Positions 23,258-52,210 of a stretch of 64,000 nt of DNA are shown in pieces. The stretch is from Paraflavitalea pollutisoli (GTDB lineage: Bacteria; Bacteroidota; Bacteroidia; Chitinophagales; Chitinophagaceae), in the NCBI RefSeq assembly GCF_029360705.1, contig NZ_JARKMX010000006.1:1-64000 (forward strand), read 5' to 3'. The first letter of the stretch is position 1. Each line of letters starts with the position of its first letter. The notes under the pieces were generated by a model that saw only the letters and a list, made by a program, of their open reading frames with translations, had not been told where the DNA came from and ran no database searches. A program made the position numbers and the translations under genes.

Positions 23258-24304
23258 ATGCGGAAACTACTGCTAATACCCGTTTTAGTGATGATCCAGT
23301 TGTATGGGGTGGCGCAGACCCTGGGTGGTAATACCGTTTACAATTTCCTTCGGCTGCCCAATACCCCGGAACTCACTGCATTAGGCGGCATCAATATCTC
23401 CAATCAAACGAACGACATCGGAATGGCCTGGCACAACCCGGCTTTGTTGAGGGCATCGATGCATACGCAAGCCAACTTCGTATTCAATGCTTTCTACGGC
23501 GATATCCGTAATTATCATCTCCAAATGGGGTATCGGCATGAAGCCTGGAAGACCGATTTTTCGATGGGGGTCAACTATTTCAACTATGGTTCAATACCCG
23601 CTACAGATATGCTGGGTAACCAATACGGTGATATACGTCCTGCCGATTACGTCGTTCAGCTATCCGCCAGCCGCCAATACCTCGAACGCTGGCACTATGG
23701 GGCAACTGTAAAATTTATCTATTCCAATTATGGGACCTATCGATCTTCGGGTATGGCCATGGATATCGGTATCAGTTATGCAGATACCGCCAACCTGTTG
23801 CAGGCTTCGCTGGTGATCAAAAATATGGGCACGCAACTGAGTGCTTATGCCGGTACTGCGCGTGGTGACCTTCCTTTTGATCTGCAAATGGGTATCTCCA
23901 AACGACTGGCTAAGGCGCCCTTGCAATTCTCCCTGACAGCGCACCGCCTGCATCAATTCGATATCCTGTACCGTGATACTGCTTTCAATCAGGAGAATGG
24001 GTTTGATCAGAATATCGGCGATAAAAAGTTTACGTTCGACAAGTTATTCCGTCATATAGTCTTGTCTATGCAGTTGTACATCACGGATAAGATCGAGGTG
24101 AGTGCAGGGTACAATCACCTGCGCCGCCAGGAACTTAAAGTGGGCAACACAGGCAATGGGATCAATGGATTTTCGTTGGGAGTAGGGGCGTTGTTCAAAA
24201 AGCTGCAGATCAGGTATGCCCGCAGCTACTACCAGAATAATACCGCCTATAATCAATTAGGTCTTTCGATGGCCCTGAAAGACCTGAAGACAAAACTGCA
24301 TTGA
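23258..24304 (+). CDS. porQ: Type IX secretion system protein PorQ
   Basis: A 348-residue outer-membrane barrel protein with signal peptide (MRKLLLIPVLVMIQLYGVAQ). TLGGNTVYNFLRLPNTPELTALGG followed by NDIGMAWHNPALL is the diagnostic opening of PorQ, a PorV/FadL-like barrel of the attachment complex that fixes type IX substrates to the cell surface in other Bacteroidota. The rest is a run of beta strands ending ARSYYQNNTAYNQLGLSMAL. Its presence implies a type IX system elsewhere in the genome. A TATTTTCG element lies about 20 bp before the start. Confidence 0.85.
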   Translation: MRKLLLIPVLVMIQLYGVAQTLGGNTVYNFLRLPNTPELTALGGINISNQTNDIGMAWHNPALLRASMHTQANFVFNAFYGDIRNYHLQMGYRHEAWKTDFSMGVNYFNYGSIPATDMLGNQYGDIRPADYVVQLSASRQYLERWHYGATVKFIYSNYGTYRSSGMAMDIGISYADTANLLQASLVIKNMGTQLSAYAGTARGDLPFDLQMGISKRLAKAPLQFSLTAHRLHQFDILYRDTAFNQENGFDQNIGDKKFTFDKLFRHIVLSMQLYITDKIEVSAGYNHLRRQELKVGNTGNGINGFSLGVGALFKKLQIRYARSYYQNNTAYNQLGLSMALKDLKTKLH

Positions 24305-26115: not shown

Positions 26116-27408
26116 ATGAAGCGTTTCGTCGTGATGACCTTGCTCCTGGTAGTTGTTTTTTCCTTCAATTATATAACCCGAACCAGGTTGCCATTAGCTT
26201 ACGCGGATCTTGCAGACTATAGTTTGTTGTATACTACAGAAGACGGCCTTTATGTAAAAAAGCTCTGGCTTGAACATGACTCAATTGCCATGCAGGTGAA
26301 TGGCGTTGCGGATAAGCAAGACTATTCTATAGTGACTTTAGGGGCTCATGGAGAGAGAAGCGAGCCGGTAACCTATCGGGGTACTACTTTACGGTATAAG
26401 CCAGAGGCGGGTAAACCACGGGTCATGGTAACGGTAAATAACCAGGACTCTTTCAGGTTACAGCTATCCACCTCCTTCCCCGATACGTCGGAACCAATCG
26501 ATGCAACAGTCTCACAGGATTTTGAAATAAGCAGTCCTGATATCATGATAGAACCGGCCAGCATCAGGTCCATGGACGACTGGGCTGCATCGGCGTGGTG
26601 GAAGACGGAGCGGGTTACTCCGGCTCAGGTGCAGCAGGTGTTAAGAGATTCCATCCATATACAGGGCCAGGACAATTCGGAGCAAAGGATCATCAAGATC
26701 GCAGCTTTTATTTTGGCAAGAACCCGTGGCAAAGGCCCAAGGCCTGCCGCCTTTATGACATCTCTGCATCCCTTGGAGCAATTGCGGGAAGTTCAAAACA
26801 ACCGTTCGGGGCTTTGGTGTGGTAATTATACTGCGATGTTCTCGTCCCTGGCAACGATAGCGGGTATTCCCGTACGTACAGTGGGTACGGGAGGGGAATG
26901 GAGTGGAGTAGGGAAAGGCGTGCATATGTTTTGCGAGGCATACATCCGGGAAAAGAAATGCTGGGCTTATGTAGATCTGCTGGCCAACACTATGCTGATT
27001 AGTCAGCAGGGGCGGTATCTCAATGTACTCGATGTACACCGGTTGCTGCCTTTTCAATTGCCCGATTCGGCGATCAGCGCCTATACTTATCAAAATGATT
27101 CGGTAGTACTAAGACCATTCAACACTTTGCGCGAAATACCAGCCCTTTACTTCACACCCAATACAGTATTTACCTTTTACTATGACCGCTATTTCCGCAT
27201 GTACCCCGCAAATGGTTGGTCCAGCCGTATTGCCAATTTCTTCAGCATGGCACCCTATTATGCCTTGTACAGCGATAATATGAGCGTCGTTAAGACAAAC
27301 TACGAGTTTTACATGCGGCTTGTCTCCAATGGGCTGCTGGTAGCGGCTGCATTGATATGGAGTGTTTACCTCCTGTTGTGGTTTAGGAAAGGACGCAGGC
27401 GGCAATGA
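26116..27408 (+). CDS. Membrane protein with transglutaminase-like domain
   Basis: A 430-residue protein anchored at both ends: an N-terminal helix (about 4-20) and a C-terminal helix (about 405-425) before a basic tail. The middle is predicted to face the periplasm. A beta-rich region (about 40-140) is followed by a transglutaminase/peptidase-like core with a plausible triad: Cys235 in SGLWCGNYTAMF, His270 in GVHMFCEAYI and Asp287 in WAYVDLLANTM. Such domains act as proteases or cross-linkers; the substrate is unknown. Its stop directly abuts the stop of the convergent sulfatase-like gene. The leading half matches no family I can name. Confidence 0.75.
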   Translation: MKRFVVMTLLLVVVFSFNYITRTRLPLAYADLADYSLLYTTEDGLYVKKLWLEHDSIAMQVNGVADKQDYSIVTLGAHGERSEPVTYRGTTLRYKPEAGKPRVMVTVNNQDSFRLQLSTSFPDTSEPIDATVSQDFEISSPDIMIEPASIRSMDDWAASAWWKTERVTPAQVQQVLRDSIHIQGQDNSEQRIIKIAAFILARTRGKGPRPAAFMTSLHPLEQLREVQNNRSGLWCGNYTAMFSSLATIAGIPVRTVGTGGEWSGVGKGVHMFCEAYIREKKCWAYVDLLANTMLISQQGRYLNVLDVHRLLPFQLPDSAISAYTYQNDSVVLRPFNTLREIPALYFTPNTVFTFYYDRYFRMYPANGWSSRIANFFSMAPYYALYSDNMSVVKTNYEFYMRLVSNGLLVAAALIWSVYLLLWFRKGRRRQ

Positions 27409-28911
27409 TTACCACAATTTTTGAACGTCATGGTAACTAAAAATTGTCGAGTCTTTCTGTAGCGGAATTTTTGCCTTGAAATACTTATTGAATAACAATG
27501 GGAAGGTGTTCACCGTACTGATATGATCATACATGGCTGAATATTCTCCGTCCGGGTAGTAGATGGCAAACAGGTTGTTGTATTGATATTGTTTCGGGTC
27601 TACCTTTTCCAGTGCCCGATATCCATGATCGCTTACCAGGATGATGACCCTTGGTCTTGCGCCTGTATGCTTGATTTGATGTACCATCTTTTTAATGAGG
27701 GTATTGCAATATTTGAGTTGCGATAGGTAATACGCTTTATCACCCTCCGTCCTAAACCAGAGAGAATCGGGCGTACGTTGACCCGTGCTGTCGAAAAAAT
27801 AGGGGTCATGCGGCAATAGGAAATGAGTATAGACAAATGCAGGTCCCTGTTGCTCAGTGGCTGACGCATGAAGCAGTTGTTCTTCGGCTTTAAAGATCTG
27901 TTGAAGGTGCAGCTTGGATAAAGGGAGACGTCTTTCTATAAAGTCAGAAGTGCCCATTCCGAAATTCCACAAAACGTCCTTGGAAAATCTCGCTGGTAAC
28001 GTCTGAGATAGTAAGGTACTCGTTGGGTTTGCTGTAAAATTGATATCAAGGGCGGCATCATGTAGTGGTAGCGGGAAACAGGAGTTGTTGACTATCGAGT
28101 AGCCGTTGCTGATCAATAGCTCGATCACCTTACTTTGGCTGATGCTGCCTGTACCACGGCAAAACTCCTGCAGGTCATTGGTAGAGGGTGGGTGCTGGTG
28201 ATAGTCCATGTTCAAAATGCTGCCCAGGGAGAATGGGGTGAAATTATAGTTGCTGCTGGAATTCCGCGCATAAAAGAAGCCTTCCTTTCGAAAGAAGGTG
28301 TCCATAGAATTGTTGCTGAAGTCCCAGTATTCCTGCAAAGAACGTTGGCCGGCATAGCCGTCAAATACAATGAAATAGACGTCCGGCTTTACACAGGTAT
28401 CGCAAATGGCGGTTGTTAGCACCGGATCGCTGGTAACCTTGCTAGACAATTGATTGGTTAACCAAAGGTTGTTTTTAATCAGCACACGACCTGCTTCTAT
28501 CACGTTGAAAATAACCAGTAATAAATTGAGGTACAGGAATGCAACTGGAAATGAGTTCTTTTTTGATCTTTTTAAGATCATGAAAATGATCAAAGCACAA
28601 AGAGCCTGGAAAGGAAGTATAAATTTGAAATGGGCTAAAAAAGGCAGCACCTTCTTGCAACTGGCCAGTATACTGCCAAAGAAGAGGTACACAATCGATA
28701 AATAAAGCAGCAGCAAAGCATACCGGCTATAGCGGGGCCGGGCAATAAAAATTACCAGTATTACAACATGAATGCCCAGGATCAGCAGGCTGGCGGAATT
28801 GTAAAAATCGTCCGCCCGTAGTAACGGAAAGTAAAGATTGAGGGTATTTAGCACGTAGAAGATGGGCAGCAATACGATAAAGAGCGGATGCCTGCTAAAT
28901 AAATTCTTCAT
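27409..28911 (-). CDS. Membrane sulfatase/alkaline-phosphatase-like protein
   Basis: A 500-residue inner-membrane protein: about five N-terminal helices (8-30, 40-57, 62-83, 95-113, 121-138), then an alkaline-phosphatase superfamily domain. Metal motifs seen are DVYFIVFDGYAG (Asp184), HFLLPHDPYFFD and ILVSDHGYR. The layout resembles lipoteichoic acid synthase and phosphoethanolamine transferases. The usual catalytic Thr/Ser site is not obvious, as the residues after Asp184 read GYAGQRS. It is the last gene of a leftward operon, 25 bp after the NoeA-like methyltransferase. A role in modifying a lipid-linked or surface glycan is inferred. Confidence 0.82.
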   Translation of the reverse strand: MKNLFSRHPLFIVLLPIFYVLNTLNLYFPLLRADDFYNSASLLILGIHVVILVIFIARPRYSRYALLLLYLSIVYLFFGSILASCKKVLPFLAHFKFILPFQALCALIIFMILKRSKKNSFPVAFLYLNLLLVIFNVIEAGRVLIKNNLWLTNQLSSKVTSDPVLTTAICDTCVKPDVYFIVFDGYAGQRSLQEYWDFSNNSMDTFFRKEGFFYARNSSSNYNFTPFSLGSILNMDYHQHPPSTNDLQEFCRGTGSISQSKVIELLISNGYSIVNNSCFPLPLHDAALDINFTANPTSTLLSQTLPARFSKDVLWNFGMGTSDFIERRLPLSKLHLQQIFKAEEQLLHASATEQQGPAFVYTHFLLPHDPYFFDSTGQRTPDSLWFRTEGDKAYYLSQLKYCNTLIKKMVHQIKHTGARPRVIILVSDHGYRALEKVDPKQYQYNNLFAIYYPDGEYSAMYDHISTVNTFPLLFNKYFKAKIPLQKDSTIFSYHDVQKLW

Positions 28912-28936
28912 GGTAGCAACAATGGTTGGGTATTGT

Positions 28937-30313
28937 TCAGTTCTTTCTCCTCATCAGGTACAGCAAACGATGGGTGCCGGGCACAGGTTCTACGGCTGTG
29001 ATCGTGAAATGACGGGAAAATGTATCCTCGAATACGGGCCTGGTGTATTGCTGAAACACATCCTGGCGGCTGGCCAGCATTTGCTGTACCTTTTCATCTT
29101 CCCGCGGTACGAATTCTATGATCAATACGGGTGCAATATCGCGGAACCAATCGGCCAGTAAATCCAGCGGAATATTCTTACCGATCACCAGGTGGTGTAC
29201 CAGGGCGAGGGCCAGTACCAGGTCGGTTTGCAGCCTGCTGAAGAAAGCAGCTCTTTCCCGGTTATGAAAACCAATGGCCGGTGAAGGATTCGCCACGTCG
29301 AGGATCAGGGGCAGCAGGTTGGTGATATTCTTTTTGCGCACTTCCCGGTAAAGCCGGCTGATACACTGTCCATCCACATCAGACGCAATGACGGGAATGC
29401 CCTGCGCTGCCAGTAGCTTGGAAAAGTAGCCATCGTTGGCACCAAGGTCAAGGGCATTGCGGACTGACAGCTGCCCGATGAACCGGTTGAAGATGATCTC
29501 CTTGGCCTGCAGGTATTCCTGGCTAAGGATGCTGTCATCATAATAGTTGTTCCAGGTCGTTTTATAGGTTCGTTCGCCCGGAAATCTTTGCAGGATACTC
29601 TCGAGATGGCTCAGCAGGTCGAGTAGTTTCTTCTTTTGAAATTGTACGGTATGGGTGGCCGGCTTACGCGCACCCCGCTGTACGGTATTCTGCAGGTATA
29701 CATGCAGCCATACACCGAGATTGAGGTTGCTCTTCCAGGGCAACAGGCGGGCTGTTACATCCACCGGTACCCCTTCGATATAAACGCTCAGTATTTTTTG
29801 AACATCTTTTTTCAGGTAATGCTCCAGGTACAGGGGAAACAAGAAGCATTGGCAGAATTGCCGGTAGGCCACCCAGGGTTCGCTGGGGACATAGGGCTCG
29901 AAAGAAAGGGTATCTATGAAAACAGGTCTGCCGGCGACGAACTGAATGTTGAACGGTGTAGCGTCTTTCAGGATCATACCATGGTCCAGGGCCGTACGCA
30001 TGATCTGCAGGGTCAGCAGTGCTGCATCCCGCAGTTGCTCAAAGCTCCATTCGTACGGATAAGAAATGAAGGGTACCACTTCCGGCAATAAGGTCTTGTA
30101 ATGATCGGCGGTTACCGGGTGAGGTGCTGCTACTTCCCTATGGCCGATCAACTGTTTTTTGCCTGTCAGCTTTTGGTAGAGTCCGGAGCTCATGAGCTGA
30201 TCGTAAGCGGCTGCGTAAGACTGGTTGACCTGTCGGTACAGGTTTCCCTCCGCTTCATAGATAAAGCCGGAGGGGTCTTTAAAGGATGCCGGATGCTGCT
30301 GGTAGTTAGTCAT
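28937..30313 (-). CDS. NoeA-like SAM-dependent methyltransferase with kinase-like N-terminus
   Basis: A 458-residue protein. The C-terminal half is a class I methyltransferase: motif I NALDLGANDGYF (286-297), then VIASDVD and LVLALALVHHLVIG. The N-terminal half contains HGMILKDATPFNIQF (111-125) and VFIDT (131-135), spaced like the catalytic loop and metal motif of aminoglycoside-type kinases (H-x-D-x(4)-N and D). The aspartate of the first motif is replaced within LKDATPFN, so kinase activity is uncertain. The layout matches proteins related to NoeA, known from nodulation-factor loci. It overlaps the 60-residue membrane protein gene by 8 bases. Confidence 0.8.
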   Translation of the reverse strand: MTNYQQHPASFKDPSGFIYEAEGNLYRQVNQSYAAAYDQLMSSGLYQKLTGKKQLIGHREVAAPHPVTADHYKTLLPEVVPFISYPYEWSFEQLRDAALLTLQIMRTALDHGMILKDATPFNIQFVAGRPVFIDTLSFEPYVPSEPWVAYRQFCQCFLFPLYLEHYLKKDVQKILSVYIEGVPVDVTARLLPWKSNLNLGVWLHVYLQNTVQRGARKPATHTVQFQKKKLLDLLSHLESILQRFPGERTYKTTWNNYYDDSILSQEYLQAKEIIFNRFIGQLSVRNALDLGANDGYFSKLLAAQGIPVIASDVDGQCISRLYREVRKKNITNLLPLILDVANPSPAIGFHNRERAAFFSRLQTDLVLALALVHHLVIGKNIPLDLLADWFRDIAPVLIIEFVPREDEKVQQMLASRQDVFQQYTRPVFEDTFSRHFTITAVEPVPGTHRLLYLMRRKN

Positions 30314-30488
30314 TTACTGGGTCGTTCCCGGTCGTGTCTTCTTTTTTGGGCCTGAAAAAGAAGGCCTTTATCCGCCAGAATATGTTCCTGAAGTAGAACA
30401 TCGCGCCCAGCACGGCAGCAATAATGGCCTGTACCAGGTAGCTTCCGCTACCTGGATCGACATACAGAAAAAGTTGGTTCACTGTCAT
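30306..30488 (-). CDS. 60-residue membrane protein (DPGSGS type)
   Basis: One or possibly two helices: LFLYVDPGSGSYLVQAII is followed by AAVLGAMFYFRNIFWRI, then a basic and acidic tail (FFRPKKEDTTGNDPVND). The DPGSGS-hydrophobic pattern belongs to small membrane proteins that I recall next to sulfatase-like and methyltransferase genes in other bacteria; that is recollection, not a search. The gene overlaps the M42 peptidase stop by four bases (ATGA, 30485-30488) and the methyltransferase start by eight, so translation of all three is probably coupled. Function unknown. Confidence 0.8.
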   Translation of the reverse strand: MTVNQLFLYVDPGSGSYLVQAIIAAVLGAMFYFRNIFWRIKAFFFRPKKEDTTGNDPVND

Positions 30489-31597
30489 AGGTAGCTCAGA
30501 TTCGTTTTGGGCGTTAACGTCAGCAACGTCTCATACATCAGTTGGATCGTTTGCTCGATATCGCTTTTGTGCAGCATTTCAACGGTAGTGTGCATGTAAC
30601 GCAGCGGAATGGAAATGAGTACAGAAGGACAACCGTCATTCGCATAAGCAAATGAATCGGTATCGGTACCCGTACTACGCGAAACCGTTCTCAACTGCAC
30701 TGGTATCTTTTTCTTTTCTGCCACGTCCTGTACCAGGTTGAGCAGTTTATTGTGTACCGCCGGACCATAGGCGAGTGACGGACCTTTACCGCAGGCTACA
30801 TCGCCTTCGATCATCTTATTGACCATCGGGGTATAGGTGTCGTGGGTAACGTCAGTGATGATGGCAATATCGGGTTTGATGCGACGGGCGATCATCTCAG
30901 CGCCGCGCAGTCCGATCTCTTCCTGCACCGCATTCACTACATACAAGCCATAAGGCAGTGTTTTCTTGTTCTCTTTCAGCAGGCGCGCTACTTCAGCAAT
31001 CATGAAACCACCAATGCGGTTGTCGAAGGCGCGGGCGATATAATAGTCGTGGGCCAGTTCGTCGAAGCCATCCTGGTAGGTAACGACCGAGCCAATATGA
31101 ATACCCAGGTCTTCTACTTCTTTACGGGTGCGGGCACCGGTATCGAGAAACAGGTTGTCGACCTTGGGTTGTGGGTCTTTTACATCGGGATTGCCGAGGC
31201 GGGTATGGATAGCGGGCCATCCAAATACGCCTTTTACCATGCCTTTTTTGCCATGGATGAATACCCGTTGTCCGGGAGCGATCTGGTGATCGACGCCACC
31301 ATTGCGCTTCAGGTACAACAGACCTTCTGCCGTAATATAATTGACAAACCAGCTGATCTCGTCTGCATGTGCCTCGATCACTACTTTGAAGGGCGCTTTG
31401 GGATTGATCACACCTACTGCGGTACCATAAGGATCAACAAAGGTGGTGTCTACATATTGTTTGAGGTATTCCAGCCATATTTTCTGACCACTGTACTCAA
31501 AACCCACGGGGGAGGGGTTGTTGTGGTAGTTCTTCAGGAATTGCATGGATGTTTTCGTAATCACCGATTTGGACCCGGAGGTCTCCTTTTTAGCCAT
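30485..31597 (-). CDS. M42 family metallopeptidase
   Basis: A 370-residue cytoplasmic aminopeptidase of the M42 (FrvX/TET) family, which forms large tetrahedral assemblies in relatives. Metal and catalytic residues are visible in order: AHADE (77-81), RAFDNR, AVQEEIG, IITDVTHD and RYMHTTVE. Full length. It is the first gene of a leftward operon of four and its stop overlaps the next start. A soluble peptidase is not an obvious partner for the three envelope genes behind it, so the link may be transcriptional convenience. Confidence 0.92.
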   Translation of the reverse strand: MAKKETSGSKSVITKTSMQFLKNYHNNPSPVGFEYSGQKIWLEYLKQYVDTTFVDPYGTAVGVINPKAPFKVVIEAHADEISWFVNYITAEGLLYLKRNGGVDHQIAPGQRVFIHGKKGMVKGVFGWPAIHTRLGNPDVKDPQPKVDNLFLDTGARTRKEVEDLGIHIGSVVTYQDGFDELAHDYYIARAFDNRIGGFMIAEVARLLKENKKTLPYGLYVVNAVQEEIGLRGAEMIARRIKPDIAIITDVTHDTYTPMVNKMIEGDVACGKGPSLAYGPAVHNKLLNLVQDVAEKKKIPVQLRTVSRSTGTDTDSFAYANDGCPSVLISIPLRYMHTTVEMLHKSDIEQTIQLMYETLLTLTPKTNLSYL

Positions 31598-42753: not shown

Positions 42754-43473
42754 TTAATCAATCCCCCCAATAAGGGTCTTGATCAGGATCATGAAATCGA
42801 GCCGGGATGAGGCATTGCGCAGATAATATAGATCCCATTGATACCGCAACACGGCATGCCGGCGGTCGGTAACCGGGCCATGAAACCCTTTTACCTGGGC
42901 TAGTCCGGTAATACCAGGTCTCACCAGGTTGCGTAGTTTATAACCAGGAATGAGGAGGGCAAACCGCCTGCAATCTGAATACATATGTGGCCGTGGTCCT
43001 ACCACACTCATATCTCCCAGCAATACATTGACAAACTGTGGCAGTTCATCGATATGCCAGTTGCGCAACCAGGCTCCCACACGGGTAATCCGTTTGTCAC
43101 CTGGGCAGGCTGCCTGGTAGTCGGCTGCCCGGTTCACCACCATCGTGCGGAATTTATAGCAGAGGAAGCTGCGGCCACCGCGGCCTACTCTTCGTTGAAG
43201 GAAGAATACCGGCCCTTTCGAGTCTGCATACAACAACAGTGACAACAGCGGAGTCATCCAACTCAGTAACAACAGTAAAACCAGCAAGGCAAGCCCGATA
43301 TCAAAACAGCGTTTCAGCATAAAGAAGCCGGGCTTGCCCGCCACCATCGGGCGATAGCATACCTGCGTATGCGGGGCAGCTATATCAATAACTGGCGATG
43401 AGCCGATGAGTACATCCATGGTGAACCAATCAGATAGTGAAGCCGGATCGTTGCAAACCATCGTTCCATACAA
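42754..43473 (-). CDS. Initiating sugar-phosphate transferase (polyprenyl-phosphate)
   Basis: A 239-residue membrane enzyme that transfers a sugar-phosphate from a nucleotide sugar to undecaprenyl phosphate, the first step of capsule, exopolysaccharide or glycan assembly. The catalytic domain is full: [24 protein letters not shown] (membrane hairpin), [47 protein letters not shown] and [10 protein letters not shown]. It is the short monotopic type (PglC-like) without the multi-helix N-terminal domain of WcaJ; a 55-residue N-terminal extension precedes the helix. Divergent from the nucleotidyltransferase gene. Confidence 0.92.
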
Positions 43474-43539
43474 GCAACCTTTTTAGCACAGACCCGGTAT
43501 TGAATAGGAATACGGACTCCTTTCAAAAACAGTTGCCTG

Positions 43540-44475
43540 ATGTACGCCATTCAACCACCCGCGATCAATACCAACAAAATACTTGAGGCCAGCATACTGC
43601 GCACCCTGGCGTGGTTCGATCTGTTTCGATATCCCATCACCGCAAACGAGTTGTTATATTTCCTCGACCGACCGGCGACACCCGATGCATTGAAGAAGTC
43701 ATTGACACAACTGCAGGCGTCCCGGCAGGTGTATATGTTGGGTGGCTTTTATGCCCTGCACAATGATCCTGCTTTGGTGATAAGGCGCCGGAAAGGAAAT
43801 GAAAAGGCAACCCGTATGTTGCGAAAAGCCTACCGCATAGGGCGGTTGTTGTACTGCTTCCCCTTTGTTCGGGCCGTGTGTATTTCGGGTTCGCTGTCCA
43901 AGTGTTTCGCTGATGAACAGGCAGATATCGATTTCTTTATCGTTACCAGCGCTAACCGGTTGTGGATTGCCCGTACTGCCATGCACGTGTTGAAGAAGTT
44001 GTCCTATTGTTGGGGTGGACAGCATAGTTTTTGCATGAATTTTTATATCGATGAACAGGCGTTGGAGATTCCCGAGCAAAATTATTTTACCGCCATTGAA
44101 ATGATTACCCTGCTGCCGGTATGTGGAGAGGCGACTACGAACAATATGATGGCTGCCAATTCGTGGATACAGCAATATTTTCCCGCGGCACGTAATAAGG
44201 AAGCATTTTATACCAATAACCAGCGCGTCGACCAGCTTAAACATGGCATCGAATGGTTGATCGATCGGTTGCCGGGAGCTGCCCGCCTGGATGATTACCT
44301 GATGCGTATCACCGCCAGCCGATGGCAGGAGAAGGAAGCTGCTGGCCTTACCAACATGCGTGGTGGAAAAATGGCCTTGCTAACGGCGAAGCATTTCTCC
44401 AAACCCAATCCACGTTATTTTCAGGTGGAGATCCTGGAGCGATACCGGCGAAAACTGGAGATGGTTTTGAAGTAG
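43540..44475 (+). CDS. Nucleotidyltransferase-fold protein
   Basis: A 311-residue protein. An N-terminal winged-helix-like region (SILRTLAWFDLFRYPITANELLYFL, about 18-42) is followed by a polymerase-beta-type nucleotidyltransferase motif: VCISGSLSKCFADEQADIDFFIVT, with the G-S and D-x-D residues that bind metal and nucleotide. The remainder is helical. Such proteins occur in polysaccharide and radical SAM loci of Bacteroidota without a proven reaction. Its place between the sugar-phosphate transferase and the radical SAM/glycosyltransferase genes suggests a role in that pathway. Confidence 0.8.
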   Translation: MYAIQPPAINTNKILEASILRTLAWFDLFRYPITANELLYFLDRPATPDALKKSLTQLQASRQVYMLGGFYALHNDPALVIRRRKGNEKATRMLRKAYRIGRLLYCFPFVRAVCISGSLSKCFADEQADIDFFIVTSANRLWIARTAMHVLKKLSYCWGGQHSFCMNFYIDEQALEIPEQNYFTAIEMITLLPVCGEATTNNMMAANSWIQQYFPAARNKEAFYTNNQRVDQLKHGIEWLIDRLPGAARLDDYLMRITASRWQEKEAAGLTNMRGGKMALLTAKHFSKPNPRYFQVEILERYRRKLEMVLK

Positions 44476-44655
44476 GCGGGGCTGTTGCTTCCCCAATGCC
44501 TGTACACCTCGTTGTCTGGTAGCCTTGTTGCCTGTGGCCGTGCTAGCTCGTTGCCTTTCTTCCTCGTGCCTCACTTCCTTTCCTCGTTGCCTTGCTGCCT
44601 CGATGCCTTGTTGCCTCGGTTCCTCACTGCCTGATGGCCTCGTTGCCTTTCTTCC
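44476..44655. repeat. Pyrimidine-rich degenerate repeat (TGCCTCGT-like)
   Basis: From about 44500 to 44655 the plus strand repeats short units such as CTCGTTGCCT, TGCTGCCTCGA, TGCCTTGTTGCCTCGG and TTCCTCACTGCCTGA, with a period near 8-9 bp. The other strand reads as GAGGCAA repeats. The array covers the region between convergent genes and enters the last codons of the radical SAM gene, encoding its GRKKGNEAIRQ tail. Confidence 0.75.
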
Positions 44656-46048
44656 TGCCTTCCTCCAACGACATGCGCCGCTGCGCCAATATCGAACGTA
44701 ACTTGAACATGGGTAGCTTGAATAGATTGGCCAACGGCTTCTTCAATGCCTTGTGGTAATACATTTCATTGTTGATCATCTCGATCGCATAATCATAGTA
44801 CCGCCGCGTATACGTGCGCTGAAAATCGATATCGCGGTCGGTACTGGTTTCCCAGGGCAGGCTCGTGACGAACCGCTCTTCTACCTCTGCATACAGCGGC
44901 GTGCCCTTGATGGGGTAGGTGACGGTAATGGTAAAAAGGTCGGGGTCGGAGGTCTTCAGGTGATGCACGGTTTCGAAGATGTCTTCCTTCGTCTCACCAG
45001 GATAACCAACCATAATGAAGGTGCCTGCTTGTAAACCATGATGCCGGGCCAGCCGTATCATATCGCGTACCTGCTGCACCTCCACCCGGCGGTCCATCAG
45101 GTCGATGACCTTTTGCGAACCACTTTCTGCACCGATCCACACCCGGTAACATCCACTGGCTTTCAGTTGCAGGATCACCTCCTCATTCATCCGGTCGGCC
45201 CTGGTGATGCATTCGTAGGGCATTACAATTCCCCGCCTGGTCACTTCATCGGTGAAATCACTCAACCATTTATGACTTACAGTAAACACATCGTCCACAA
45301 ACCAGATACTGTCTACGGTATAATGTGCCTGGATCCAAGCGATCTCATCGGCCACGGCCTGTGGGCTGCGTCGCCGGTAGCTTTGCCCGTATACCGCCCG
45401 GCTGCACCATTTGCAGGAGTAAGGGCATCCGCGCATCGTGCTCACCGATATCGTGTTGGTGCCGTGTTTGCCTTTCCACGCATCGAAGTACAATTGCAGG
45501 TCAACCTGCTGCCGGTTGGGCATGGGTAGTTCATCGAGGTTCTTTTGTTTGGCTCGCTCCCTATTCTGCATCACGCCACCGTGTTCGTCGGTATAAGCGA
45601 TGCCATCGATGGCAGAACGGTTGGGCATACCGGTGCCCGCCTCGTATTGCACAATCTCCAACATGGTTTGTTCTCCTTCTCCCAGTACCAGGTAGTCGGC
45701 TCCCTGCTCCAGGAAATTGACGATGTGGTTGCGTACTTCCGGTCCACCCAAGACGATCTTTGTATGGGAGAGTGCAGGTGATTGGCGGATAAAACGAATG
45801 ATGCGCAATACATTGAGTTTTGTCATCAGGTTCGTATAGATGCCCACTACCTGCGGTTGGTCGTGCAGGAGTGCCGAACATAGTTTGTCGAAGGAAGAAA
45901 AGGTGCTGTCGAAAACCCGGTTGTTATAACCAAACTGTTCGAGGTAGGCGGATATATAGAGAATGCCCAGGGGCACATAAGGCCGCATGATGGCCTGTTC
46001 TTTCGCATCCTCTTCAATAAAATATCCATGAGTGAGCAGGATATTCAT
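44624..46048 (-). CDS. B12-binding-type radical SAM protein (first copy)
   Basis: The start at 46048 (MNILLTHGYF) overlaps the methyltransferase stop by four bases and matches its paralogue at 46847-48307. The 474 residues comprise a cobalamin-binding-type N-terminal domain (about 1-150, with PYVPLGILYISAYLEQFGY and LVLGEGEQTMLEIV), the radical SAM core with C208, C212 and C215 in MRGCPYSCKWCSRAVYG, and a C-terminal helical part. The DxHxxG motif for base-off B12 binding is not seen. Relatives methylate or rearrange lipids, sugars and natural products. Third gene of a leftward trio; its end runs into a degenerate repeat. Confidence 0.88.
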   Translation of the reverse strand: MNILLTHGYFIEEDAKEQAIMRPYVPLGILYISAYLEQFGYNNRVFDSTFSSFDKLCSALLHDQPQVVGIYTNLMTKLNVLRIIRFIRQSPALSHTKIVLGGPEVRNHIVNFLEQGADYLVLGEGEQTMLEIVQYEAGTGMPNRSAIDGIAYTDEHGGVMQNRERAKQKNLDELPMPNRQQVDLQLYFDAWKGKHGTNTISVSTMRGCPYSCKWCSRAVYGQSYRRRSPQAVADEIAWIQAHYTVDSIWFVDDVFTVSHKWLSDFTDEVTRRGIVMPYECITRADRMNEEVILQLKASGCYRVWIGAESGSQKVIDLMDRRVEVQQVRDMIRLARHHGLQAGTFIMVGYPGETKEDIFETVHHLKTSDPDLFTITVTYPIKGTPLYAEVEERFVTSLPWETSTDRDIDFQRTYTRRYYDYAIEMINNEMYYHKALKKPLANLFKLPMFKLRSILAQRRMSLEEGRKKGNEAIRQ

Positions 46049-46854
46049 GGTACATTCTTTTTTAGTAAAACATAGGTGTGATCGGCCAGGGCGCTTAATA
46101 GGGGTAGTGGTTGACTTTTTGTGTCGAGCCATACCAGCAGGTGAAAAAGCCGGGGGTGTTTACGCATGGCGGGTTCCAGGTACGAGGGAGGGATGAATAA
46201 ACCAACCGGTTTGGCCGTGAGCAGCCTGAAGGTTGGTAGCCTTCTTGAGAATTGCCGTACCGAATAATAGCTGATCGACTGTTGCACGGTATCGGTGAGT
46301 CGTGCCAGTTGTGGCCGTTGCGTCCATCGCCTGCCTGCTTGTCGCCAATGGCCCTTGAGCAGGTAGTAGCAGGATTCCCACCAGCAATATTTACCAAACA
46401 GTACCAGCGCCAGGTGCCCCTCGGGTTGCAGCAGGGCCTGAAAGGTTTTACCCAGTTGATGGAGTTGCGGAGGCGTGATACAGTTCAGTCCGGCAAAGTT
46501 GGAGAAAACCAGGTCGAATGGTACATGGTCCTGCAAGCTGCCCAGTTCATGGAAAGCGCAGGTGAGAAATTGCGGGGCCACTACGTCGTTGTGTTGTGGT
46601 CCTTTGGCATTGGCAGCGTCGATCATGGCGGCACTTTGGTCTGTAGCTACAACCTGGTGTCCCAGGGAAGCCAGCCACCAGGCATCATCACCGGTACCGC
46701 AATTGATCTCCAGGATACGCAGCGAGCCTTTGCCTGCCAGGAATTGCAGCAGCCAGCGGCGGGCGACCTGACGTTGGGCTTGTCCTGTCAGACTTTGACC
46801 GAAACCCAGGTCATACCCGGCTGCCAAGGCATCAAAGGCGGCCATTTTATTCAT
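46045..46854 (-). CDS. Class I SAM-dependent methyltransferase
   Basis: A 269-residue soluble methyltransferase. Motif I is LRILEINCGTGDDAWWLASLG, followed by VVATDQSAAMIDAA and a post-core FDLVFSNFAGLNCI. It lies between two radical SAM genes, overlapping one by eight bases and the other by four, so the three products are probably made in fixed ratio and act on one substrate. The C-terminal 90 residues contain SYYSVRQFSRRLPTFRLLTAKPVGLFIPPSYLEP, a segment seen in methyltransferases next to glycan genes. Substrate unknown. Confidence 0.85.
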   Translation of the reverse strand: MNKMAAFDALAAGYDLGFGQSLTGQAQRQVARRWLLQFLAGKGSLRILEINCGTGDDAWWLASLGHQVVATDQSAAMIDAANAKGPQHNDVVAPQFLTCAFHELGSLQDHVPFDLVFSNFAGLNCITPPQLHQLGKTFQALLQPEGHLALVLFGKYCWWESCYYLLKGHWRQAGRRWTQRPQLARLTDTVQQSISYYSVRQFSRRLPTFRLLTAKPVGLFIPPSYLEPAMRKHPRLFHLLVWLDTKSQPLPLLSALADHTYVLLKKNVP

Positions 46855-48307
46855 ACGACAGTTGTTTCAGTTGCCAACGCCCCAGCACCGTGCGGGGAAG
46901 ATACAGGCAGGCAGCAGCGATCTTTTTGAAGTCGGTGCCCTGCAAAGAGAAGGGATGGCGCAGTCCTTTGCGTAATAACTGCCAGCCCTGTTCGGTGCGC
47001 AATACATGGTGTACATGGCGGTGCAGCTTTTTATAAAATGCCGGGGAGTATTTATTGCGGAACATCAGTTGCAATTCGTCGGAGTCGGTCCAGTTGGCTT
47101 TGCTGTGCAAATCATGTTTCACCCGTTCGTAAAACAAGGTGCCGGGCAAGGGATAGGATACCGAAATGCCGAGCTCGGCCGGCATTAGTTCGCGGATCAG
47201 CTGAATGGTCTTTTCAATATCTTCCCTCGTTTCTCCGGGATAGCCAAACTGAATAAAGAAACCTGGCCGTATATGGTGTTGCTTCAGCAATTGGGTGGCC
47301 TGCCTGATCTGGTCGATGGTAGTGCCTTTGTCCATCGCATCGAGAATGGCCTGTGAGCCACTTTCGGCACCCATCCAGGCGTTTTCGCAACCAGCTTTGG
47401 CCAGCCAGTATACATAGTCTTCCTGCACCAGCAGATCGGCCCTCGATTGGATCTTGAAGCGGAGGGACAGTTGTTCCTGTTCGCAGAGCGTGGCAAACTC
47501 TTGCACCCAGCCTGGCTTCAGGCCAAAGATGTCGTCACAGAACCAGATATGATCGAATTGGAATTGTGCTTTGAGCAGTTGTAATTCACGTACCACGTGG
47601 CGGGGAGAGCGGGAGTGATAACGATTGCCATAGATCGGTTTGGCGCACCAGTTACACTTGAAGGGGCAACCACGGGTGGTGCCCATATTCATCGAGAAAT
47701 AGCCGGTGCTTTTCAGCCACATAGCCCGATAAGGGGTAATGTCTACCAGGTCCCAGGCAGGCAGTGGCAGGCTGTCGAGGTCACGGATCACGCCCCGTTT
47801 GCCGGTTTTAACTACCGTGTCTGCTGACCGGTAGGCAAGTCCTGGTATATGGCTGCAGGAGGTAGTACCGGCCTGAAGGGCATTGACCAGTTCCAGCAAC
47901 GTCATTTCGCCTTCGCCGAGAATGATATAATCGGCCCCTTCCTGGAGGTATTGCTCGTAGTGATCGGTGGAATCGGAACTGCACACGATCACCGTACATC
48001 CCCTGTCCTTTGCCAGGCGTGCCATGCGAAAAGCTGCTTCCCGCATATTGGTGAGGCACATTTTGGTCAGGTAATTGAAGCCGTCATCATACAGCACAAA
48101 AAAGTTGGGCGCAGCCCGGTCAAGGTGCGGCACCACATCGGTTGCTGCGGTGGCAAACATGGTATCGAACAAGCTCACGGCATAGCCATGTTCCCGTAGC
48201 TGTGCGGCGGCATACAAAGTGCCCAGCGGGGCATAGGGTTGACCGGTAGCCCATTGCTTGGGGTCGAATCGAAGGAAATAGGAATGGCTCAATAAGATCT
48301 TCTTCAT
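46847..48307 (-). CDS. B12-binding-type radical SAM protein (second copy)
   Basis: A 486-residue paralogue of the protein at 44624-46048, with the same layout: cobalamin-binding-type domain (PYAPLGTLYAAAQLREHGY, then IILGEGEMTLLELV), radical SAM core with C214, C218 and C221 in TRGCPFKCNWCAKPIYGNRY, and a C-terminal helical part. The two copies share the cluster motif followed by YG and RSP but differ strongly elsewhere. It is the first gene of the trio. Likely catalyses a radical methylation or C-C bond reaction in a glycan, lipid or secondary product; the substrate is not known. Confidence 0.88.
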   Translation of the reverse strand: MKKILLSHSYFLRFDPKQWATGQPYAPLGTLYAAAQLREHGYAVSLFDTMFATAATDVVPHLDRAAPNFFVLYDDGFNYLTKMCLTNMREAAFRMARLAKDRGCTVIVCSSDSTDHYEQYLQEGADYIILGEGEMTLLELVNALQAGTTSCSHIPGLAYRSADTVVKTGKRGVIRDLDSLPLPAWDLVDITPYRAMWLKSTGYFSMNMGTTRGCPFKCNWCAKPIYGNRYHSRSPRHVVRELQLLKAQFQFDHIWFCDDIFGLKPGWVQEFATLCEQEQLSLRFKIQSRADLLVQEDYVYWLAKAGCENAWMGAESGSQAILDAMDKGTTIDQIRQATQLLKQHHIRPGFFIQFGYPGETREDIEKTIQLIRELMPAELGISVSYPLPGTLFYERVKHDLHSKANWTDSDELQLMFRNKYSPAFYKKLHRHVHHVLRTEQGWQLLRKGLRHPFSLQGTDFKKIAAACLYLPRTVLGRWQLKQLSYE

Positions 48308-48399
48308 AATCCGTTCAGCGCAAAGGGTAGGTACACAGTGCTACTAATAGTACGGCTACCGGAAGCGCAGGTTGCCTGGACCAACAAAGAAGTATGATC

Positions 48400-49200
48400 T
48401 TACCGTACGGCCAGTATTTTAGCAGCACCAGCCCGCGGCACCTGGTCTACCTGTTGGTTGTATTGCAGGCGGCCGTAGCGGATGCCGATCGCCAGTACCA
48501 TCGAATGGTGACTGTCTGGCATATCCAACGGATATTCCAACGTAAACGTGAAGGGAGGCGCTCCTTCCGTACAGGGAAACCAATCTCCCAGCACCAGTTG
48601 GGTTCCCATTTCCTCATACTGTTCTGCACTCGCTGTATACCTGCCTACTGGCTGGGAATACAGATCGGGTACTACGCCGAAGGTGACCATCAGGCTGCAC
48701 AGCGGGTAATAAGGCGAAGGGTGGAAGTTGATGCCGGTGGTCAATTGAGGAATGTGGATACTCGCCTTCCTGTTGGCTTTGTCCAGCGTCCATTCGAGGT
48801 GGTTGCGTACAATGCCATCGAAATGCACCAGCCGGTTGAGTGAATAGCCAGCCAGTACAGCAGGCCAGTGCGATAGTTCAATACTACGCTGTCCGAGTTT
48901 ACTGGTTTTATCCATTTCCTGTACTGGCTTTAGCAAGGCGTTGAGGGGACCGGCGATATTCTTGTCGGCCAGGGCTTTCAATGGCATGATGGTGTGCATG
49001 ATAAAGCTGGCGGACCGTGATCGGCCGCCAAATTCGGCATTGATGCGCCGGGTCTCTTCAAACTGTGGATCGTTCTTGATCTTGTCTCGGGAGGCGCCAC
49101 CTTTTCTCCGCCGCACCGTGCGGTTTACACCATACATCTTGTAAAACGAATAGTTGCCATCGCCGTCCCTTGGGGTGGGATCTTCCTGATTACGTGCCAT
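48400..49200 (-). CDS. Conserved-looking protein of unknown function
   Basis: A 266-residue soluble protein. The N-terminal part is basic and contains RRKGGASRDKIKNDPQFEETRRINAEFGGRSRSA, a pattern I have met in uncharacterised Bacteroidota proteins but cannot name. The middle and C-terminal parts are beta-rich (KASIHIPQLTTGINFHPSPYYPLCSLMVTFGVVPDL, FTFTLEYPLDMPDSHHSMVLAIGIRYG). No catalytic motif, signal or membrane helix is evident. It stands 92 bp downstream of nothing on its strand and 93 bp before the radical SAM trio, and may share regulation with it. The 11-bp repeat array lies upstream. Confidence 0.7.
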   Translation of the reverse strand: MARNQEDPTPRDGDGNYSFYKMYGVNRTVRRRKGGASRDKIKNDPQFEETRRINAEFGGRSRSASFIMHTIMPLKALADKNIAGPLNALLKPVQEMDKTSKLGQRSIELSHWPAVLAGYSLNRLVHFDGIVRNHLEWTLDKANRKASIHIPQLTTGINFHPSPYYPLCSLMVTFGVVPDLYSQPVGRYTASAEQYEEMGTQLVLGDWFPCTEGAPPFTFTLEYPLDMPDSHHSMVLAIGIRYGRLQYNQQVDQVPRAGAAKILAVR

Positions 49201-49318
49201 AAGTCGGTAATAATTGTGGTGATTGAATACAGTAGCTGACCTCAGGCGTGGTTGGTTGGGACACGTAACTACTCCCTAAGATAAGCAGAATATAACCTGA
49301 TAACAAATTGTTCATGAC

Positions 49319-49402
49319 CCGTAGATAAGCTGTACCTATACAAGGACGGGTTATCTACAGCTTATCTACGGCTTATCTACGGGTTATCTACGGCTTATCT
49401 TC
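49319..49402. repeat. Array of five 11-bp direct repeats with inverted copy
   Basis: Five head-to-tail units of 11 bp occupy 49348-49402: GGGTTATCTAC, AGCTTATCTAC, GGCTTATCTAC, GGGTTATCTAC and GGCTTATCTTC. Just before them, 49319-49334 (CCGTAGATAAGCTGTA) is the exact reverse complement of 49356-49371, so a 16-pair hairpin can form with part of the array. It lies between divergent genes. The reverse-strand unit (GTAGATAAGCC) shares the ATAAG core with the array at 3541-3589. Confidence 0.92.
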
Positions 49403-49648
49403 CAGATTGGCGGTCAAGTAGAGGCCATTCGTTGACCCGATAGGGGTGTAATGACCGAAAAAAAGTGGAAATTTTTGTGCAGGTAGTGCGGAGCAGGGGT
49501 TGTAGCGGCAGGCAGCCCGATACGTAGTCGTGACTGACTGGGTTGCCTGTGCGAACCTTTAATTAAATTATTGTCGGATAGGCGATTGCGTGCAACCGGA
49601 ATACGCTAACATTGTGGGGAAGGCTACCTGTACGGGGCCTGGCCAAGT

Positions 49649-50656
49649 ATGGACATCAGTGTTGTTATTCCCACCTGCAACCGGAAACAGCGTTTGCTGC
49701 AATTACTGCACAACCTGCAGCAATCGGTGTATCCGCTGCATGAAATCATCGTTGTCGATGCGGGGGAAGACAGGCTGACCGTAGAAGACCTGGCGCCCTA
49801 TGCCCACCTGACTATTCATTATCTCTCTTCAGAAAAATCGGTTTGCATACAACGGAACAAAGGTATACAGGTAGCCCGGGGCGAATGGATATTCCTGTGT
49901 GACGATGATATGGAAGTGCCGGCCGATTACCTGCACCTGCTTGCGCAGCATGTGTCGTTGCATCCATCGGCCGGCGCGGTATCCGGTCAGGTGTTGCAGC
50001 AGTACCACGGTAAGTGGACGGCCAGCTATGCGATACAGTCATCGAGGGCCTTGTTGTTTCATTATATCTTTCAGCTCAGCATTTGGGGAGAGATCCGTTG
50101 CGCAGGGAATAACCTGTTGGTGAGGCGGGTGCTGCAATACTACCAACGCAAAGGTAATCACATCACGCGGGCAGGCTGGCCGGTGATCACTGATTTCAGG
50201 GGCGACTATTTCACCACGCCGGTATATGGATTGGGGGCTTCGCTGGTGCGGCGTGCCTGGCTATTACAATCGCCTTACGAAGAGGTGCTCGACCGGCATG
50301 GTATCGGCGACAATTATGGCGTCAACCTCGGTTTCCCCGTACCGGGCGTGCAGGTGCTCAATAAGGCGTTCGTATATCACCACCATGCTCCCGAGAACCG
50401 CCTGCAACGCCCCTTACAATACTATCGCCGTATGCTGGCTTTGCATTATTTTACAAGAACCCGTCGGGAACTTCGATCGGTGAAAAAGGGGTGGCTGCTC
50501 TGGTCGCTGGCAGGTAACCTGTTGGGGTTTGTACGGCGCGGTGACTGGTACATGATCCGCGCTGTGGTGAAAACCGGTTGGCGTATCACCTGGGAGCAGA
50601 ATCCTTACACCCGTGCGGCCAAAAACAACCAAAAAGTAGTGGAACCTTTGCTATGA
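49649..50656 (+). CDS. Family 2 glycosyltransferase
   Basis: A 335-residue GT-A fold enzyme. MDISVVIPTCNRKQRLLQLLHNLQQS opens the nucleotide-sugar domain; CDDDMEVP (around 87-94) holds the metal-binding D-x-D; and a later acidic residue is present in ITDFRGDYF. It transfers a sugar from a nucleotide donor to a glycan or lipid-linked acceptor in the cytoplasm. The start is the first ATG of the domain. It is coupled by an ATGA overlap to the following membrane glycosyltransferase, so the two probably work in one pathway. Confidence 0.9.
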   Translation: MDISVVIPTCNRKQRLLQLLHNLQQSVYPLHEIIVVDAGEDRLTVEDLAPYAHLTIHYLSSEKSVCIQRNKGIQVARGEWIFLCDDDMEVPADYLHLLAQHVSLHPSAGAVSGQVLQQYHGKWTASYAIQSSRALLFHYIFQLSIWGEIRCAGNNLLVRRVLQYYQRKGNHITRAGWPVITDFRGDYFTTPVYGLGASLVRRAWLLQSPYEEVLDRHGIGDNYGVNLGFPVPGVQVLNKAFVYHHHAPENRLQRPLQYYRRMLALHYFTRTRRELRSVKKGWLLWSLAGNLLGFVRRGDWYMIRAVVKTGWRITWEQNPYTRAAKNNQKVVEPLL

Positions 50657-52200: not shown

Positions 52201-52210
52201 TTTGCCCTGG

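Follow-up and report, generated by a model that had tools for sequence, protein, structure and literature searches.

A NoeA-NoeB-type gene pair with an overlooked small membrane protein forms a widespread three-gene module

Four closely spaced genes are found on the minus strand of a 64,000-nucleotide stretch of Paraflavitalea pollutisoli DNA (hereafter the window), from position 31597 down to 27409. In this order, they code for an M42 peptidase, a 60-residue protein with a DPGSGS motif, a methyltransferase and a sulfatase-like membrane protein. The locus raises the question of whether these genes form a functional unit and, if so, which of them belong to it and what the unit does. A sequence-only reading had proposed that all four are a coupled operon and that the last three are an envelope-modifying set with no described pathway. 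The gene spacing that it gave matches the coordinates exactly: the peptidase gene and the small gene overlap by 4 bases (30485-30488), the small gene and the methyltransferase gene overlap by 8 bases (30306-30313), and a 25-base gap (28912-28936) precedes the sulfatase-like gene. We report that the last three genes are a widespread, self-contained module of the NoeA-NoeB type with an overlooked third member. The methyltransferase and the sulfatase-like protein are called NoeA-like and NoeB-like below.

The recurrence of the trio was analyzed in a scan that was seeded with an alignment of five methyltransferase relatives and covered one genome per species. It returned at least 575 confirmed relatives. 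The set used consists of the best 80 of these plus the window, four Bacteroidota loci and four plasmid loci. These loci are the nearest relatives and are not independent, and many are from metagenome bins. The record titles of the 80 span Bacteroidota, Chloroflexi, WOR-3, Nitrospirae, Omnitrophota, Aminicenantes, Saccharibacteria and the archaeon Methanoculleus. The small gene was found on the same strand and at most 300 bases upstream of the methyltransferase gene in 76 of the 82 loci with at least 300 bases of upstream flank. A NoeB-like gene was found at most 400 bases downstream in 70 of the 83 loci with at least 1000 bases of downstream flank (on the same strand in 65). Both partners are present in 61 of the 76 loci with both flanks. 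Gene starts in this count are the longest possible, so that overlaps are upper estimates; when the nearest ATG is used, the overlap between the small gene and the NoeA-like gene persists in 60 of 78 loci.

A genome-wide co-occurrence test, which is independent of gene neighbourhood, gave the same picture. Candidates scored per genome were limited to 4 (NoeA-like, 395 genomes), 15 (small protein, 395 genomes) and 7 (NoeB-like, 198 genomes), so that misses are possible. Among 198 Bacteroidota genomes, five have a full-length NoeA-like protein (a sixth match, in G162, covers 66 residues only), and exactly the same five have the small protein (in G078 with a weak match, E 5e-4). At E<=1e-20, the NoeB-like protein was found in four genomes, all within these five and including G033, where its gene is not linked to the other two; in the fifth genome (G172), a longer and divergent NoeB-like gene adjoins. 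Among 395 genomes, 14 have the NoeA-like protein and 14 the small protein (E<=0.001), with 13 common to both. The two exceptions are G222, with a divergent NoeA-like gene and no partners, and G374, with a look-alike small gene and a genome completeness judged at 80% (see below). Three further small-protein matches at E<=0.01 sit in frames of 427 to 585 residues (G184, G367 and G373). Over 68 loci, the divergence of the three proteins is correlated (Mantel r 0.47, 0.34 and 0.59, each reached in 0 of 1000 permutations), in a test that ignores species relatedness. The proposal that the last three genes are a set is thus borne out. The trio is not rare elsewhere, and its recurrence together with the genome-wide co-occurrence rules out chance neighbours; we found no supporting point for unrelated genes adjoining by accident, and its probability is negligible.

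The peptidase does not belong to the module. An M42 gene of the same kind is present in 12 of 13 Chitinophagaceae genomes tested and is kept in seven of the eight family genomes that lack the trio. In one genome (G007), the M42 gene is directly followed by a gene that, in the window, sits past the trio and one convergent gene, and which is a biotin synthase gene judged by its motif. For the neighbourhood counts, 42 loci were assigned manually, from their record titles, to a Chitinophagaceae-like group; the 50 loci elsewhere include six from other Bacteroidota. The M42 gene occurs in 33 of 92 loci, all 33 within this group, and in none of the 50 others. A four-gene operon with the peptidase as a working part could point to these 33 loci and to the 4-base overlap in the window. 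Because the peptidase is present in family genomes without the trio and absent from all 50 loci elsewhere, and runs directly into the biotin-synthase-like gene in G007, we consider such an operon very improbable and reject the peptidase as a part of the module. It is a fixed Chitinophagaceae neighbour, and its place in the operon as first proposed was not upheld. Outside the group, neighbour families of at least 120 residues (the NoeB type excepted) recur in at most 4 of 50 loci, and the few that do include sugar-nucleotide enzymes and glycosyltransferases (judged by eye).

The closest known counterparts of the trio are rhizobial nodulation genes. The NoeA-like protein is homologous to Sinorhizobium NoeA along its full length (coverage 98%, identity about 32%; E 8e-53 to 2e-53 among the matches listed). 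The methyltransferase was found in 65 plasmid records, 61 of which are rhizobial by name (57 Sinorhizobium, 3 Rhizobium, 1 Ensifer). Among the 25 matches listed, some are annotated as noeA, some as S-adenosylmethionine (SAM)-dependent methyltransferase, and many are without annotation. In Ensifer canadensis, the gene order is nodL, a gene for a 71-residue "hypothetical protein", noeA and noeB; this order is the same in S. meliloti ml47, and Rhizobium sp. T136 has the same layout. In Ensifer canadensis and S. meliloti ml47, the overlap between the small gene and noeA is 23 bases. The product of the small gene has a leader, the sequence AYLDPGTGS, a hydrophobic stretch and a basic tail. When this protein was used as a query, 61 plasmid records were obtained with the same per-genus counts as above (counts were compared, not individual records), including pSymA of S. 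meliloti 1021. Judged by homology and gene order, the last two genes of the locus are a NoeA-NoeB pair, and the unnamed small gene is also found between nodL and noeA. The genes of Sinorhizobium, Ensifer and Rhizobium are alike in having a full-length NoeA homologue and the order small gene, noeA, noeB. The window differs in that nodL does not adjoin, no nodulation context is seen, and its small protein has no leader. In the 68-locus set, no non-rhizobial NoeB-like protein exceeds 22% identity to rhizobial NoeB.

According to the passages that cite the 1995 source paper, nodL, noeA and noeB were described as one operon. In the parts of PMC9758233 that concern them, noeA and noeB are known genetically as Sinorhizobium host-range genes, and there and in other citing passages, the chemistry of NoeA and NoeB is put as a hypothesis. 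The same source, a survey of Legionella kinases from 2022, describes the NoeA family as kinase-methyltransferases with conserved neighbours. Over 816 neighbourhoods, Lani_1194 has a NoeB-like neighbour in 38% and Lani_1193 in 65% (PMC9758233). The Lani_1194 family resembles the window in its kinase-methyltransferase architecture, its homology to NoeA and its same-strand neighbours, which include a NoeB-like protein, and Methanoculleus is found in both. Lani_1193 may be the same gene as that for our small protein; the relevant text of PMC9758233 does not describe it as a small membrane protein. Among the papers listed from 2019 on for NoeA or kinase-methyltransferases, only PMC9758233 treats, judged by titles, the family itself. 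The earlier statement that there is no described pathway is therefore only half true: the pair is known by genetics as NoeA and NoeB, and the kinase-methyltransferase family was described in 2022. The conservation of the trio implies that NoeA and NoeB act with a third partner, a 71-residue membrane protein in rhizobia, and that the trio is much wider than nodulation.

The small protein is the steadiest partner of the NoeA-like protein. It matches no Pfam family up to E 0.1 (DUF5453, at E 0.11, falls short of the cut-off) and nothing above the cut-off in NCBIfam. When 54 members were compared with Pfam, the commonest match was AtpR (4 members, best E 1e-5). Nevertheless, the frame behaves as a gene, as judged from its substitution pattern: among five Niastella and Longitalea relatives, nonsynonymous divergence (dN) is 0.018-0.062 and synonymous divergence (dS) is 0.23-2.05 in the 8 computable pairs; dS is saturated in the other 7 of the 15 pairs, among them the five that involve the window sequence. 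Identity to near relatives is 61-68%. In 54 aligned relatives, Tyr9 and Gln20 are invariant (54/54), and the motif is nearly so (D11 in 53, P12 in 51, G13 in 52, G15 in 51 and S16 in 52). A literature search on the motif letters gave no relevant paper by title.

The earlier claim that this is a membrane protein holds up. Of 84 small proteins, 83 were scored (L046 failed the motif expression and was excluded). The 20 residues past the motif are hydrophobic on average in all 83 (mean Kyte-Doolittle value 1.77, lowest 0.73), and the charge after this stretch is net positive, also in all 83. A hydrophobic leader is present in 37 of 44 small proteins outside the Chitinophagaceae-like group, and 28 of these 37 have a signal-peptidase-like -3/-1 pattern just ahead of the Tyr. 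By the positive-inside rule, basic segments face the cytosol. Since the tail is basic, we predict that the protein spans the membrane once, with the motif on the outer face and the tail inside. The idea that it anchors or guides the other two proteins fits this predicted orientation.

The NoeA-like protein has an N-terminal kinase-like domain and a C-terminal methyltransferase domain (AlphaFold model with a mean predicted local distance difference test score (pLDDT) of 92.4). The kinase-like front domain had been proposed before, and this proposal is confirmed by what is published of the family in PMC9758233 and by four residues (R27, D117, N122 and D134) that are invariant in 66 of 66 relatives; its designation as kinase-like takes its basis from these two points. 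In the methyltransferase part, D289, G291, N293 and G295 are likewise invariant in 66/66. All Pfam matches of the protein are below the cut-off, with Methyltransf_23 the best of them (E 4e-4). Among solved structures, the methyltransferase domain matches WbdD first, both by profile (E 0.001) and by Foldseek (E 6e-9). In a second structure alignment, two entries for methyl-phosphate capping enzymes are tied with the leaders; this alignment took in the methyltransferase domain only, so that kinases could not appear. As described in the part of PMC3482155 that deals with it, WbdD acts on the mannose at the end of the O9a antigen, which it first phosphorylates before methylating the phosphate, and it works with an exporter of the ABC2/Wzt_C type. 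WbdD and the NoeA-like protein both carry a kinase and a SAM methyltransferase on one chain, and WbdD is the nearest match in two of three structure comparisons. They differ in domain order: WbdD has methyltransferase, kinase and coiled coil, whereas the order is reversed in the NoeA-like protein, the chain of which ends at the methyltransferase, with no C-terminal coiled coil. The divergent NoeA-like gene of G222 (L143:5293-8867) is part of a glycan cluster and directly follows genes for an ABC2-membrane permease and a Wzt_C ATPase. Its product is 25% identical over the kinase part and keeps the four kinase residues.

The NoeB-like protein matches the Pfam family Sulfatase (PF00884, E 4e-7, above the cut-off). 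Its model (mean pLDDT 88.1) has five long helices followed by a domain of the alkaline phosphatase type. The Foldseek top match is EptA of Neisseria (E 2e-7, about 12% identity over the structural match). The protein resembles the phosphoethanolamine transferases EptA, EptC and MCR and the lipoteichoic acid (LTA) synthases in its membrane helices, in the predicted outer alkaline-phosphatase-type domain and possibly also in a Thr at the likely place of the nucleophile. T225, H363, H368, D428 and G430 are invariant in 52 of 52 NoeB-like proteins, D184 is conserved in 50 and H429 in 48. The Thr and the Asp and His residues may be the equivalents of the EptA nucleophile and metal-binding residues. 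By analogy with EptA, the catalytic domain presumably faces the outside. Acetylcholine receptor chains, which were matched by the profile via the membrane part, were taken as chance.

Alternatively, the NoeB-like protein might not be a transferase but might trim or monitor the NoeA product, as a phosphodiesterase, a sulfatase or a YejM-type sensor. Its matches by PDB profile are mostly sulfatases, and in a second structure alignment of the outer domain, choline sulfatase, YejM and EptC domains are tied (Z about 20). The formylglycine motif of sulfatases carries a Cys or Ser, whereas T225 is invariant at that place in all 52 proteins. A dead sensor is unlikely because H363, H368 and D428 are invariant, and EptA heads the Foldseek list. 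A non-transferase is thus rather improbable.

In several loci, NoeB-like genes deviate from the one-copy arrangement. Two tandem NoeB-like genes are found behind one NoeA-like gene in L020, L025, L038, L043, L047, L051, L067, L071, L072 and L096. Pairs of a small gene and a NoeB-like gene with no NoeA-like gene between them occur at L075:10572-14983, L029:4929-6750 and L046:9875-11564, each next to a NoeA-like gene that is accompanied by a small gene of its own; the L075 pair has the variant motif YIDPNTGG. The genome of the window has a second NoeB-like gene (G000:C15:3986439-3987902; L142:7434-8912), which lies beside a deoxynucleoside kinase gene with neither partner nearby. NoeB-type proteins that fill the third place in the module have 480 to 825 residues.

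From these comparisons, we propose the following mechanism. The cytosolic NoeA-like protein would put a phosphate, and probably a methyl group on this phosphate, onto a membrane-bound carrier or a lipid-linked glycan. The NoeB-like protein, with its five helices and its outer EptA-type domain, would move the phospho group to an acceptor outside the membrane, which in this bacterium may be a surface glycan and in rhizobia a Nod factor or an envelope glycan. The small protein would have its Y-x-DPGSGS segment outside, beside NoeB, and its basic tail inside, beside NoeA, and would either join the two or help the intermediate across. What was observed is the gene set, its recurrence and genome-wide co-occurrence, the conserved residues and the predicted folds; the substrate, the methyl-phosphate product, the direction of transfer and the orientation and role of the small protein are all what we infer here, and we give this reading a probability of roughly 45%. 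A role in decorating the envelope or exported molecules is likely. Of the earlier proposal of an envelope-modifying set, the role stays the most plausible one, as modification of the envelope or an exported glycan. The NoeA-like protein is 66% identical to its nearest relative, the NoeB-like protein at most 32%. A constant inner chemistry combined with a changing acceptor would give this pattern, and the acceptor probably does vary. The trio layout also resembles, by analogy only, a three-part system for glycosylation outside the cytosol, which consists of a GT-A enzyme, the small flippase GtrA and a GT-C enzyme (PMC13390465, in the part describing this set). With an inner half that resembles a methyl-phosphate capping enzyme and an outer half that resembles a phosphotransferase, a "host-specific nodulation protein" would become a part of a three-part system.

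NoeA and NoeB might also act independently. The NoeA-like protein would then cap a lipid-linked glycan with methyl phosphate in the cytosol, the NoeB-like protein would separately add a phosphoethanolamine- or phosphoglycerol-type group to the same polymer outside, and the small protein would only recruit NoeA to the membrane. This is consistent with the WbdD matches by profile and Foldseek, with the gene beside Wzt_C in G222 that has no small gene or NoeB, with the EptA-type fold of NoeB, and with G033, where about 400 kb separate the NoeB-like gene from the other two and genes for a polysaccharide flippase and a glycosyltransferase precede it. The genome-wide co-occurrence and the correlated divergence (Mantel r 0.34-0.59), however, exceed what two separate steps need, and we consider independent decorations unlikely, though the strongest of the alternatives to the proposed mechanism.

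Several observations weigh against the proposed mechanism. Of the 83 loci above, 13 have no NoeB-like gene within 400 bases downstream, and 9 have none even when 1500 bases upstream are counted; in G222, neither the small gene nor NoeB adjoins the NoeA-like gene. The kinase part carries an Arg where a Lys is usual, and a Pfam scan of this part in 14 members gave only one weak match (RIO1, E 0.09, in 1 of 14). Over the whole NoeA-like model, the Foldseek template modelling score (TM-score) to WbdD is only 0.30, phosphomethylethanolamine N-methyltransferase nearly equals WbdD in profile score (E 0.003), and WbdD is not among the best 50 matches listed in the second structure alignment, which is led by other methyltransferases. 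Over the whole NoeB-like model, the TM-score to EptA is only 0.38.

A gene cluster with a similar small protein came to attention in G374. At L144:7587-11328, a 78-residue protein (leader, YIGPGLGTG, hydrophobic stretch, basic tail) is encoded between an arylsulfotransferase and a sulfotransferase, next to a gene for an adenosine phosphosulfate (APS) kinase-like protein, judged by its motif. The sulfotransferase as a query gave seven plasmid records. In six of them (Sagittula, Rhodobacter, Novosphingobium, Tateyamaria, Paracoccus and Paroceanicella; L170, L171, L172, L176, L177 and L178), an arylsulfotransferase and a small Y-[IV]-GPG-x-G protein adjoin the sulfotransferase. In Tateyamaria and Paracoccus, the small gene comes first and overlaps the inner-enzyme gene by 4 bases, and the outer-enzyme gene follows; the remaining four have the arylsulfotransferase gene, the small gene, a second hydrophobic or unknown gene and then the sulfotransferase gene. 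No look-alike small protein was found at the SC52 plasmid (L173) or at two Bacteroidota loci (L174 and L175), which counts against a strict rule. These clusters, from Alphaproteobacteria plasmids and one Bacteroidota genome, resemble the trio in having a small protein with a hydrophobic stretch and a basic tail (and a leader, as in rhizobia) beside a group-adding enzyme and an outer enzyme; the enzymes are unrelated to NoeA-like and NoeB proteins.

When the DPGSGS and GPGxG small proteins were compared, the full small-protein profile scored 30.6, 24.8, 21.9, 20.2, 18.1 and 6.8 bits on six proteins. From the motif onward, they score 13.9 bits at best, compared to 15.0 for an unrelated frame (among 6917 frames, with true family members missed by the motif filter (L153, L147 and copies) and the look-alikes themselves, which topped the list, passed over). 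Because the motif-onward score is not above background, they are called look-alikes, which may or may not be homologous. Five sequences were scanned for families (three plasmid look-alikes, that of G374 and the rhizobial protein), and the four look-alikes have none above the cut-off. Three of these four weakly match CysZ, a Pfam family of sulfate transporters (17-20 bits where the cut-off is 32; E 7e-4 to 8e-3), and one matches an undecaprenyl-phosphate translocase family (E 0.01, below the cut-off). No weight was given to these matches, as short hydrophobic sequences match by chance.

By analogy, small Y-x-[DG]PGxG membrane proteins could be a general class of adaptors or carriers that move charged groups across the cytoplasmic membrane, serving NoeA and NoeB in one case and sulfotransferase and arylsulfotransferase in the other, in a layout of small protein, inner enzyme and outer enzyme. 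At its most daring, this idea would make the invariant Tyr, placed at the predicted N-terminus of the mature protein, the group acceptor itself. We regard this as a doubtful speculation. If it is true, the description of the nodL-noeA-noeB operon has missed a component since the genes were named. If the look-alike is a true parallel, it would point to a general mechanism by which charged groups are attached to extracellular molecules.

Table 1. Genes and protein parts of the locus; positions are those of the window.
Feature	Position	Strand	Length or residues	Remarks
M42 aminopeptidase	30485..31597	-	370 residues	Upstream neighbour overlapping the small gene; judged not a module member; Peptidase_M42 match
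DPGSGS small membrane protein	30306..30488	-	60 residues	Steadiest partner of the NoeA-like protein; without a match above the cut-off in Pfam or NCBIfam
DPGSGS motif	30441..30458	-	11-16	In the small protein
NoeA-like kinase-methyltransferase fusion	28937..30313	-	458 residues	Full-length homologue of Sinorhizobium NoeA
N-terminal kinase-like domain of the NoeA-like protein	29669..30313	-	about 1-215	Assignment of PMC9758233 and invariant residues
C-terminal class I SAM methyltransferase domain of the NoeA-like protein	28940..29566	-	250-458	
NoeB-like membrane protein, alkaline phosphatase superfamily	27409..28911	-	500 residues	
N-terminal membrane part of the NoeB-like protein	28444..28911	-	1-156	Five long helices in the model
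Catalytic domain of the NoeB-like protein	27412..28392	-	174-500	Predicted outside by analogy with EptA

The features of the locus are listed in Table 1. The peptidase has a Pfam match to Peptidase_M42 at E 9e-76. The source genome (8.76 Mb, 16 contigs) has 25 sulfatase-family matches, with the NoeB-like gene among them. On the plus strand, a transglutaminase-like protein (PF01841) is encoded at 26116-27408, and its stop abuts that of the NoeB-like gene (27408/27409). A gene at 23258-24304, near the trio, looks PorQ-like. Genes that we take to be PorQ-like and Lon-like occur in 17 and 24 of 92 loci, respectively, all in the Chitinophagaceae-like group; their presence near the trio probably reflects old gene order only. 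Farther away, a glycan- or natural-product-like cluster is found at 42754-54579, with a sugar transferase, two proteins of the radical-SAM/B12 type, glycosyltransferases and an ATP-binding cassette (ABC) exporter (labels by eye).

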